In this document: positions 3,035-5,713 of the stretch, piece by piece
Layout of the letters: every line of letters starts with the position of its first letter
Position numbering within the stretch: position 1 is the first letter of the stretch
Source: Bacteroidales bacterium
Lineage (GTDB): Bacteria; Bacteroidota; Bacteroidia; Bacteroidales; UBA3824
Length of the DNA: 17,203 nt
Assembly: GCA_017543645.1 (NCBI GenBank)
Contig: JAFYFR010000050.1
Coordinates: 1 to 17,203, forward strand
Direction of reading: 5' to 3'
Notes under the pieces: generated by a model
What the model was told of the DNA's origin: nothing
Databases searched by the model: none
The model's input: only the letters and a program-made list of their open reading frames with translations
Program-made: the position numbers and the translations under genes

Positions 3035-4174
3035 CTATTTTTCTTCCTGTTTCTCTTTACGATTGAGCAGATCCTTCACGTGTTGAAGTTGTTTCTCAAG
3101 TTTGCTTACTTCGCGTGTAAGTTCGTCGTTTGATGACGACATGGCTTGGTTGTGAACTTCGTTTAGCGAGTCTACCACAATACCAACAATCAAGTTTACA
3201 AGTATATAGGAGGCGAGCAGAATGAACGAGCTGAAATAAATCCACGCCATCGGGTTGGTTTCCATTACGTTTAGTGTGATGTTCATCCAGTCGTCCATGG
3301 TCATGAGCTGCAGCAGAGTGAGGAATGTGCGGTGGAGCGTTGCAAAATGCTCGTCACATTCGCCGTAAAGCTCCACACCTGTGATACCGTAAATGTAGTA
3401 CAAAAGAATGAAAAACAAGCTTGCCCAAGATATTTGCGGCAGGGAGAATAGCAGGGCTTGAAGCACACGTTTCATGTTGGCTATGCCTGACGCTACACGT
3501 AACAGCCTGAGTTCGCGCAAGATTCGTATCGCACGTGCTCCAACGAGACCTTCCAAACCGGTAAAGAAACTAAGCGACGATATTACCGTAACTATCAAGT
3601 CGAAAATATTCCACCCTTTGTCTTCGCAGGTAAAAAACTCGAGCGGTTTTTTGCGGCAGAAGATTCTTATGAGGATTTCGATGATGAAAATTATTATGCT
3701 TATGTCGCAGAAATGGTTGAGCCAGATTTCGGTGAGGGAGTTGTCTTCGGTGTAGGTCATTACTCCGGCAGCGATTGCGTTGAGGACGATAAGTATGGTG
3801 ATAAATAGCGACCCCGCTTTGGCGAGTTTGTCAATACGGTTTGACTTTTTCTCCGACGCGTTTTTAAGTTGGAGCGCGGATGAGATTTCTGCATCCTCGC
3901 CGTTTTTGCTGTATCGCTTGAGAACTTCGCCCTCTAAAAACAGGCACTGGTCGTCGATAATTTTTACAAACCGCCCGATTTCTTTGAAGTATGTGTGGAG
4001 TAATATGCCCGAAGTGTCGAAAATCTTGTAGTCGTTTTCGCTTTCGGTAACGAAAAAATCCGAGCCGCTCGCAAGCACTTTGCCACCCTTGTTGGGTATG
4101 TTGTTGATAATTTTGCCTTCTAAATCGTATATTGTCAACTGATTGACATCTTCTTTTATATATGCTATCGCCAT
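3035..4174 (-). CDS. Voltage-gated-type cation channel (BacNaV-like) with repeat-containing N-terminal domain
   Basis: Six-helix inner-membrane channel subunit expected to work as a tetramer. In the 379-residue product, S1 is about 120-141, S2 155-173 (acidic E166), S3 188-204 (D192) and S4 211-228, with Arg at 214, 217, 220, 223 and 226, a full voltage sensor. S5 is about 236-262, the pore loop about 280-300 and S6 310-336. The tail 350-379 is a predicted coiled coil, as in NaChBac/NavAb. The selectivity filter reads TMDDWMN (292-298), unlike TLESWSM of NavAb, and has two adjacent Asp residues. The first 110 residues are extra compared with typical channels of about 270 residues and contain three 36-residue repeats. 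The start is chosen at ATG 4174; the longer frame to 4261 begins with TTG and adds a Lys-rich stretch read from A-tracts. It is convergent with SulP and divergent from the aldo/keto reductase. Channel assignment is firm; ion choice is inference. Confidence 0.92.
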   Translation of the reverse strand: MAIAYIKEDVNQLTIYDLEGKIINNIPNKGGKVLASGSDFFVTESENDYKIFDTSGILLHTYFKEIGRFVKIIDDQCLFLEGEVLKRYSKNGEDAEISSALQLKNASEKKSNRIDKLAKAGSLFITILIVLNAIAAGVMTYTEDNSLTEIWLNHFCDISIIIFIIEILIRIFCRKKPLEFFTCEDKGWNIFDLIVTVISSLSFFTGLEGLVGARAIRILRELRLLRVASGIANMKRVLQALLFSLPQISWASLFFILLYYIYGITGVELYGECDEHFATLHRTFLTLLQLMTMDDWMNITLNVMETNPMAWIYFSSFILLASYILVNLIVGIVVDSLNEVHNQAMSSSNDELTREVSKLEKQLQHVKDLLNRKEKQEEK

Positions 4175-4196
4175 TTTGTTTTTCTTTTTGACTATG

Positions 4197-4225
4197 CTAA
4201 AATACAAAATTTTGTTAAATGCAAA
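4197..4225 (-). promoter_or_regulatory. Possible promoter of the channel gene, with upstream A-tracts
   Basis: On the minus strand, TATTTTAG (plus 4197-4204) is one mismatch from TAnnTTTG, and TTTG (plus 4222-4225) lies upstream, but the 17-base gap is shorter than usual. Immediately beyond are runs of eight A (4227-4234) and nine A (4238-4246) on that strand, resembling an UP element. If real, it supports translation from 4174. Tentative. Confidence 0.3.
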
Positions 4226-4310
4226 CTTTTTTTTGCCTTTTTTTTTGGTTTTTATAATCAATTATCGGTAATTTTGGATTCTGGATTTTGATATTATTAG
4301 TTTTCAAACT

Positions 4311-5170: not shown

Positions 5171-5713
5171 ATGAAAAAACTATTATTAATTATTGTAGCG
5201 ATAATTTCGCTCAACCTCAGCGCAACAGTTAACTCCAACGCGCAGACAGTTTTCAACATTGGTAATTTCGGATTGAATGCTGGATTCGGTGTCGGCTCGG
5301 AAGGCGACATCTTCGTGCCTTCTTTCAATGTGGCAGGCGATTACGGATTTCTTGGCAACATTATCAACGGCAGGGGCTGCATCAGCGGCGGCGGTTATTT
5401 CGGCGTGGGCCAGGGATCTAAAACTGTTAACGGTGTTAAAAATATCCACGGAGTCTGGCAGATAGGAACACGTGGCGCATTGCACTATCAGTTTGTTCCT
5501 AATCTTGATACATACGGTTGTATTTCAATTGGTTATATCCATTGGAAAGACAAACTTGACCTTCCTGATTCTAAGCCGTACAAAAACGGCGAGATGAAGT
5601 GTTTTCCCACAGCCGGAGCGAGGTATATGTTCGGCACTGCTGGTGTTTATACCGAATTTTCACCTTGGAACGATTTGGCGTGGGTTAAATTCGGTTTGAC
5701 TTTTATTTTTTAA
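5171..5713 (+). CDS. Small exported protein, probable outer-membrane beta-barrel
   Basis: I do not recognise a named family. The 180-residue product starts with a clear signal peptide (KK followed by a hydrophobic stretch 4-19) with likely cleavage after SNA at residue 24, before Gln, the usual Bacteroidota pattern. The mature part is rich in Gly and aromatic residues in alternating hydrophobic/polar stretches (for example NIGNFGLNAGFGVG, ISIGYIHWKD, AWVKFGLTFIF) and ends in Phe, which fits the C-terminal beta-signal of small 8-strand outer-membrane barrels. It has Cys at three or more positions (GRGCIS, YGCIS, MKCF), unusual for a barrel. It lies 20 bases after the aldo/keto reductase and is followed by a strong palindrome-type terminator. 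Outer-membrane location is inference. Confidence 0.75.
   Translation: MKKLLLIIVAIISLNLSATVNSNAQTVFNIGNFGLNAGFGVGSEGDIFVPSFNVAGDYGFLGNIINGRGCISGGGYFGVGQGSKTVNGVKNIHGVWQIGTRGALHYQFVPNLDTYGCISIGYIHWKDKLDLPDSKPYKNGEMKCFPTAGARYMFGTAGVYTEFSPWNDLAWVKFGLTFIF

Follow-up and report, generated by a model that had tools for sequence, protein, structure and literature searches.

The window analysed here, a 17,203-nucleotide stretch of DNA from a Bacteroidales bacterium, contains a channel gene whose selectivity filter carries two adjacent aspartates, and the question it raises is whether this is a native channel that, like the engineered channel CavAb, prefers calcium over sodium. The gene occupies positions 3035..4174 of the minus strand, with an ATG start at 4174 and its stop codon at 3035-3037, and encodes a protein of 379 residues. 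The program-made open reading frame, 3035-4261 on the same strand, begins at a TTG and is 29 residues longer; we set the gene to 3035-4174 because P0001, a protein 99% identical to that of the window, is itself 379 residues long, and because the matching internal methionine is the first residue in 32 of 36 homologues. Measured against the 408-residue query that includes the 29-residue extension, these 36 homologues span 89-99% of its length.

The gene product is a member of the BacNav (NaChBac/NavAb) superfamily of one-domain, six-helix channels with the Ion_trans fold. It matches Pfam Ion_trans with an E value of 4.2e-37 and is identical to NavAb at 79 of 247 aligned positions, and Foldseek, queried with an AF2 monomer model of the whole channel that is itself of modest confidence (pLDDT 77.2, pTM 0.44), listed 50 matches at E values from 5.9e-13 to 1.8e-9, to NavMs, NavAb, CavAb, NavRh and chimeras. 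The canonical sodium filter TLESW is absent; the window protein reads TMDDW, and xxDDW is present in all 37 family members, that is, the window protein and its 36 homologues. The channel is a variant within the bacterial voltage-gated channel type, belonging to the BacNav superfamily and lying outside its canonical TLESW group.

The pore domain (S5-P1-filter-P2-S6, residues 245-345, 3140..3442, minus strand) was delimited from the AF2 model and by alignment to solved BacNav pores, the model placing P1 at residues 280-291, P2 at 296-306 and the start of S6 at 310. Within it, HMMER and MAFFT alignments locate the selectivity filter, T292-M293-D294-D295-W296-M297-N298, at 3281..3301 on the minus strand. 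The original prediction had numbered these residues correctly for the 379-residue protein that starts at 4174, but had assigned them to 3274-3300, an interval that lacks one base of the first codon and extends seven bases beyond the final one. Its central placement, that of the two aspartates at the positions of NavAb E177 and S178, is borne out by both programs: HMMER sets MTMDDW on the MTLESW of solved BacNav pores, and in the MAFFT alignment to the NavAb chain D294 falls on E177, D295 on S178 and W296 on W179. The broader alignment it had claimed with NavAb, through S4, the pore loop and S6, was likewise recovered, with partners for R99, R102, R105 and R108, for E177 and S178, and for N211, which pairs with N327 of S6. 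The two aspartates, at the high-field-strength site and the position next to it, are encoded at 3290..3295 (minus strand).

With residues 267-320 as the query, the best PDB matches are the CavAb constructs 4ms2, 6juh, 6keb and 5klb, all with the filter TLDDWSN, followed by 4mw3 with TLDDWSM; both filters come from the 2014 CavAb paper and are reportedly calcium-selective. The whole pore, as a query of 106 residues, finds Cav3.1 best (3e-23), then further solved BacNav pores, while the CavAb chain 6juh ranks lower, at 3.8e-18, and the best PDB match for the whole protein is Cav3.2; the Cav3.1 and Cav3.2 entries are presumably human proteins. Because the longer queries match Cav3.1 and Cav3.2 best, the particular resemblance to CavAb is confined to the filter. 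The last filter position is a more delicate matter. P2 of the window channel is one residue shorter than that of NavAb, and the compensating gap falls just past the tryptophan or one residue further on in two alignments, which pairs N298 with G182, or past the asparagine in the filter-region alignment, which pairs N298 with the engineered Asn of CavAb TLDDWSN. Judged from these alignments, the register of the Asp pair is secure and that of N298 less so. The asparagine that the original prediction had read at the last filter position is indeed present in the window protein, but it does not extend to the family as a trait, given this uncertain register and the alanine found in 27 of the 37 members.

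The pair itself is invariant in all 37 members, whereas the positions around it drift: position 2 is Phe in 20, Met in 10 and Leu in 7; position 6 is Met in 15, Thr in 11, Ser in 6 and Ala in 5; and position 7 is Ala in 27 and Asn in 10, so that the third aspartate engineered in the TLDDWSD form is absent from all 37. At position 1, 36 members have Thr and the remaining one has Ser. At the codon level, across 19 genes, D295 varies silently (GAC in 12, GAT in 7) and D294 is GAC in all 19. As far as sequence conservation can tell, a pair that is invariant while positions 2, 6 and 7 vary is beyond chance.

A protein search over 5.8 billion proteins returned 301 matches, and the figures given here come from the best 120 of them. 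The best 36 are 51-99% identical to the window protein and have its full architecture in common, and the score then breaks sharply, from an E value of 1.9e-111 for P0036 to 1.0e-47 for P0037. Scanning named genomes yielded 21 loci. Eighteen (L001-L018) encode the full protein, each with DDW in the filter; all are titled "Bacteroidales bacterium", and their titled sources, where named, are goat, yak or sheep stomach compartments, red deer and horse faeces. The other three, from MAGs of Coriobacteriaceae, Coriobacteriales and Eggerthellales, are partial matches. Searches of whole genomes found full-length members in 17 of the 18 genomes examined of one Bacteroidales genus (the genomes examined at the level of the taxonomic family being the same 18), and in 5 of 393 genomes sampled across the order, all five belonging to that genus. 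The remaining 11 of the 16 matching genomes in the order sample contributed one protein that matched the N-terminal domain only and ten channels with other filters: TLESWSM (1), TLEGWTD (2), TLEGWVE (1), TLEDWTD (1), TGEDWTD (4) and TGDDWAG (1). Collections of plasmids and phages (39 and 1 records) held partial matches only, all below 60% identity and none covering 80% of the query. That 17 of the 18 genomes from a single genus carry the channel suggests a real role for it.

The family also stands apart from the canonical channels in a tree of 54 rows, comprising the window protein and 12 of the 18 family loci, together with 11 further loci, 28 of the 84 remaining listed matches, NavAb and one potassium channel; the alignment included the filter columns, CavMr and NavPp were not among the rows, and stars mark 28 of the 48 inner branches. 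All 13 rows of the family group together (100/99) within a larger clade of 20 rows (99/97). The others in it are P0037-P0042, which are among the nearest relatives of the family in the tree, and the long-branched P0064; the branching order among these three groups is not settled by the tree. The six proteins P0037-P0042 carry TLEGW (TFEGW in P0038), the same glycine type of filter as in CavMr, a native calcium channel. NavAb with the TLESWSM rows, and a TLEDWTD/TLEGWTD clade, are placed elsewhere, and L044-L047, whose filters are similar to those of CavMr and NavPp, form a clade apart from the family in this tree, which contains neither of those two channels. Asp-Asp is also found in P0092 and P0120 (TLDDWK) and in L051 (TGDDWAG), and because these lie in clades other than the family, the Asp pair probably arose more than once.

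The same searches turned up a variety of other filters. P0064 reads TLDGWGS, with Asp at position 3 and Gly at position 4, and in P0092 and P0120 the Asp-Asp-Trp is followed by lysine. Three of the TLEGW proteins (P0037, P0039 and P0042) show, between S2 and S3, an apparent tandem duplication of a WNLFDLIVT-type stretch. The filters of P0046 and P0104, and of P0043, P0044 and P0059, read LSSW, with no acidic residue, or ADDLG, with no tryptophan. In L048-L052, other Bacteroidales channels, the filter is TGEDWTD (4) or TGDDWAG (1), which recalls the domain II filter of Cav1.2, TGEDWNS, as given in an excerpt of PMC4436565.

Upstream of the pore, the voltage-sensor domain (S1-S4, residues 116-230, 3485..3829, minus strand) follows from the AF2 helices and their NavAb equivalents. 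The gating-charge run of S4, R214, R217, R220, R223 and R226 together with E221 (3497..3535, minus strand), is invariant in all 37 members; MAFFT pairs R217, R220, R223 and R226 with NavAb R99, R102, R105 and R108, and R214 has no NavAb partner. Equally invariant are F163, E166 and D192, the counterparts of NavAb F56, E59 and D80. These intact residues, read from the alignment, support a working voltage sensor. E221 (3512-3514) places a glutamate inside S4 in every member, where NavAb has Val. At the other end of the protein, the C-terminal helix (residues 346-379, 3038..3139, minus strand) continues an AF2 helix of residues 310-378, and may form a tetrameric coiled coil by analogy with that of NavAb, which we take to be a coiled coil at the same end.

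The N-terminal domain (residues 1-100, 3875..4174, minus strand) is a further distinguishing feature, conserved in the family and absent from the TLEGW relatives. It resembles about three beta-propeller blades per chain, so that closure of a propeller would need several chains, and its likely location is the cytosolic side. Queried alone, the domain had no match in Pfam or PHROGs, and by sequence nothing significant in the PDB, the best hit being fibroblast growth factor 2 at an E value of 0.076. Nor is there a significant sequence match to the small or fragment-built beta-propellers Ph1500 (2m3x) and 6r5x, or to Helicobacter pylori IceA2 (7xfp), whose title states no fold; the titles of 2m3x, 6r5x and 7xfp place none of them in an ion channel, unlike the domain described here. 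A search of openly licensed PMC literature for IceA2 together with propeller found nothing. Homologues of the domain also occur as standalone small proteins with three repeats of about 36 residues, namely L053 (minus strand, mid-locus) and P0121-P0152. The L053 protein matches phrog_4903 in PHROGs (E 2.2e-8), has no Pfam match over the cut-off and no NCBIfam match, and a profile of the standalone family has no PDB match.

What the filter implies for ion selectivity is the harder question. The original prediction took it to indicate calcium rather than sodium selectivity, and its groundwork holds, in that the pair sits at the CavAb positions, CavAb constructs are the best filter matches and the pair is fixed throughout the family. 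Published recordings, cited here and below from excerpts of the papers, lend this reading weight. Aspartates added at these sites increased calcium preference in NaChBac and NavAb (PMC7764494, PMC10120453), the CavAb filter being quoted as TLDDWSD (PMC10120453); NsvBa given a DDWAD filter has a PCa/PNa of about 30 (PMC4225499); and CatSper1, which has Asp at both sites, is described as calcium-selective (PMC10120453), although it is one of several distinct subunits in a eukaryotic sperm channel complex. With CavAb the window channel shares the six-helix fold, Asp-Asp-Trp at filter positions 3-5 and, if the P2 gap is set after the asparagine, the Asn at position 7 of TLDDWSN. The CavAb pair, however, is man-made, whereas that of the window family is native and conserved, and the window channel, unlike CavAb, has Met at positions 2 and 6, the shorter P2 and the N-terminal domain. 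In the openly licensed PMC literature searched, mostly titles, abstract openings and passages, we found no report of an Asp-Asp filter in a native bacterial channel, and the AnclNav filters listed by PMC7041947 may include such a filter.

The step from two aspartates straight to high calcium selectivity, on the other hand, does not stand, as NavPp, CavMr G4D and NsvBa all break such a simple charge rule. CavMr of Meiothermus ruber is, like the window channel, a native one-domain bacterial channel, and relatives of the family bear its type of filter. Its own filter, TLEGWVD, depends for selectivity on the glycine at position 4 (PMC7041947), where the family has Asp in all 37 members, and its long disulphide-bearing loop (PMC10120453) is absent from the window family. 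In CavMr, G4D lowers PCa/PNa from 218 to 7.73, and the whole NavPp filter gives 13.8 (PMC7041947); with either change, CavMr continues to prefer calcium, the ratio being above 1. Taking the NavPp, CavMr and NsvBa comparisons together with the absence of Asp7, we conclude that the filter is a better predictor of calcium permeability than of high calcium selectivity, and that selectivity hangs on the channel background. Among the three types of background for which we found recordings with Asp at position 4 (canonical BacNav, CavMr and NavPp), only NavPp stays sodium-preferring, and it has Glu at position 3 (PMC7041947). Because this sole sodium-preferring background retains that glutamate, we put the probability that the window channel prefers Ca2+ over Na+ at about 0.55. 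The idea that a natural Asp at position 4 is rare can be set aside: a search with L045, a TLEDWTD channel from Bacteroidales, gave 6042 relatives at an E value of 0.001, and since TLEDWTD is found in all of the best 120 of these 6042, which all lie near the one query and include the query itself (P0153, 100% identical), native Asp at this position is not rare.

NavPp of Plesiocystis pacifica nonetheless provides the model for a different outcome, in which the window protein would be a sodium-permeable, voltage-gated channel blocked by external Ca2+, which its aspartate rings would hold instead of passing. NavPp (filter TLEDWTD) has, like other TLEDWTD channels, a native Asp at position 4, and it is sodium-permeable and calcium-blocked with a PCa/PNa of 0.308; its TLEDWSD mutant is also calcium-blocked, and its TLEDWAD mutant passes no inward current in divalents (PMC7041947). 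For Asp at position 4, PMC10120453 itself allows either calcium selectivity or a calcium-blocked sodium conductance. We nevertheless think this outcome rather unlikely for the window channel. In NavPp, position 3 is Glu and position 7 is Asp, whereas the family has Asp at position 3, and in NsvBa the change D186E ended Ca2+ and Ba2+ conduction (PMC4225499). The NavPp filter occurs in L045, which belongs to a different clade, NavPp itself being outside the tree. Position 2 of the family is Phe, Met or Leu, and in NavAb L176A, L176G, L176N and L176Q create calcium block and L176F does not (PMC10349818), an argument blunted by the Leu of NavPp. A loss of selectivity altogether strikes us as less probable still. 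NsvBa of Bacillus alcalophilus (TLDSWGSG), which likewise has Asp natively at position 3, is nonselective (PMC4225499), the diatom channel OsEukCatA1, also with Asp at position 3, is described as nonselective (PMC10120453), and CavMr G4D no longer tells K+ from Na+ (PK/PNa 1.20; PMC7041947). NsvBa, however, has Ser at position 4 and a GxG motif that is absent from the window filter, and its DDWAD mutant prefers divalents (PMC4225499); Asp at position 4 would make a second ring in the window channel.

A further alternative concerns gating rather than permeation, and holds that the channel is opened chiefly when its N-terminal domain meets a ligand or partner, more than by voltage, or that the protein is silent without a partner. 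The conservation of that domain and its absence from the TLEGW relatives would fit, the invariant glutamate of S4 could shift voltage dependence, and no current could be detected for two of the four AnclNav genes that were tested. Invariance of the S4 charges and charge-transfer residues in all 37 members, on the other hand, suggests selection for voltage sensing, and we consider this alternative very improbable.

We favour a calcium-preferring, voltage-gated channel, and the general course of its operation can be outlined. The gene product would be one subunit of a homotetrameric cation channel that opens on depolarisation. On depolarisation, the S4 arginines would shift past F163, E166 and D192, the pore would open and external Ca2+ would enter. 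The narrow, high-field-strength ring would be lined by D294, with a further acidic ring, from D295, directly above, and the eight filter carboxylates may bind and pass Ca2+ much as in engineered CavAb TLDDWSN. On the cytosolic side, the four N-terminal propeller-like fragments might assemble with one another or bind a partner, and so stabilise or regulate the channel. In its boldest form, the proposal would be a native voltage-gated calcium channel whose double-Asp filter evolved before CavAb was engineered, and in which the four N-terminal fragments, each of about three blades, join up as a single large, closed propeller of possibly 12 blades on the cytosolic side beneath the pore, serving as an assembly or gating ring; taken as a whole, we find this doubtful.

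The surroundings of the gene do not identify a physiological role, and neither do the other channels of the same genomes. A SulP gene converges on the channel gene and ends two bases from its stop codon. Across 19 loci (the window and L001-L018), the genes that recur near the channel gene encode a small protein with a signal-like start (at least 18 loci), an aldo/keto reductase (at least 13) and SulP (at least 9), these counts being lower bounds drawn from the 25 most widespread clusters of open reading frames of at least 90 residues, with some loci incomplete; no calcium-handling or transporter gene was recognised by eye among the recurrent neighbours in those 25 clusters. The small protein is encoded in the window at 5171-5713 on the plus strand, looks barrel-like by eye and has no Pfam match; relatives are found in 18 of the 19 channel loci, mostly within about 2 kb of the channel gene and about 6 kb off in L010. 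All seven genomes searched contain at least one additional Ion_trans match outside the family, eight in all; the three of these that were read (L031, L033 and L036, in G003, G004 and G005, genomes that encode the DDW channel as well) are KvAP-like, with the TTVGYGD potassium filter.

For a voltage-gated channel, the propeller-like fragment, with its probable cytosolic location, would be an unusual module. If calcium-selective, it would be another native one-domain calcium channel, and its family would have reached an Asp-Asp filter in nature separately from the glycine solution of CavMr. Nature would then have supplied a test of what sets calcium selectivity, charge or the geometry of the backbone. 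The TLEGW relatives are matched backgrounds for filter swaps.
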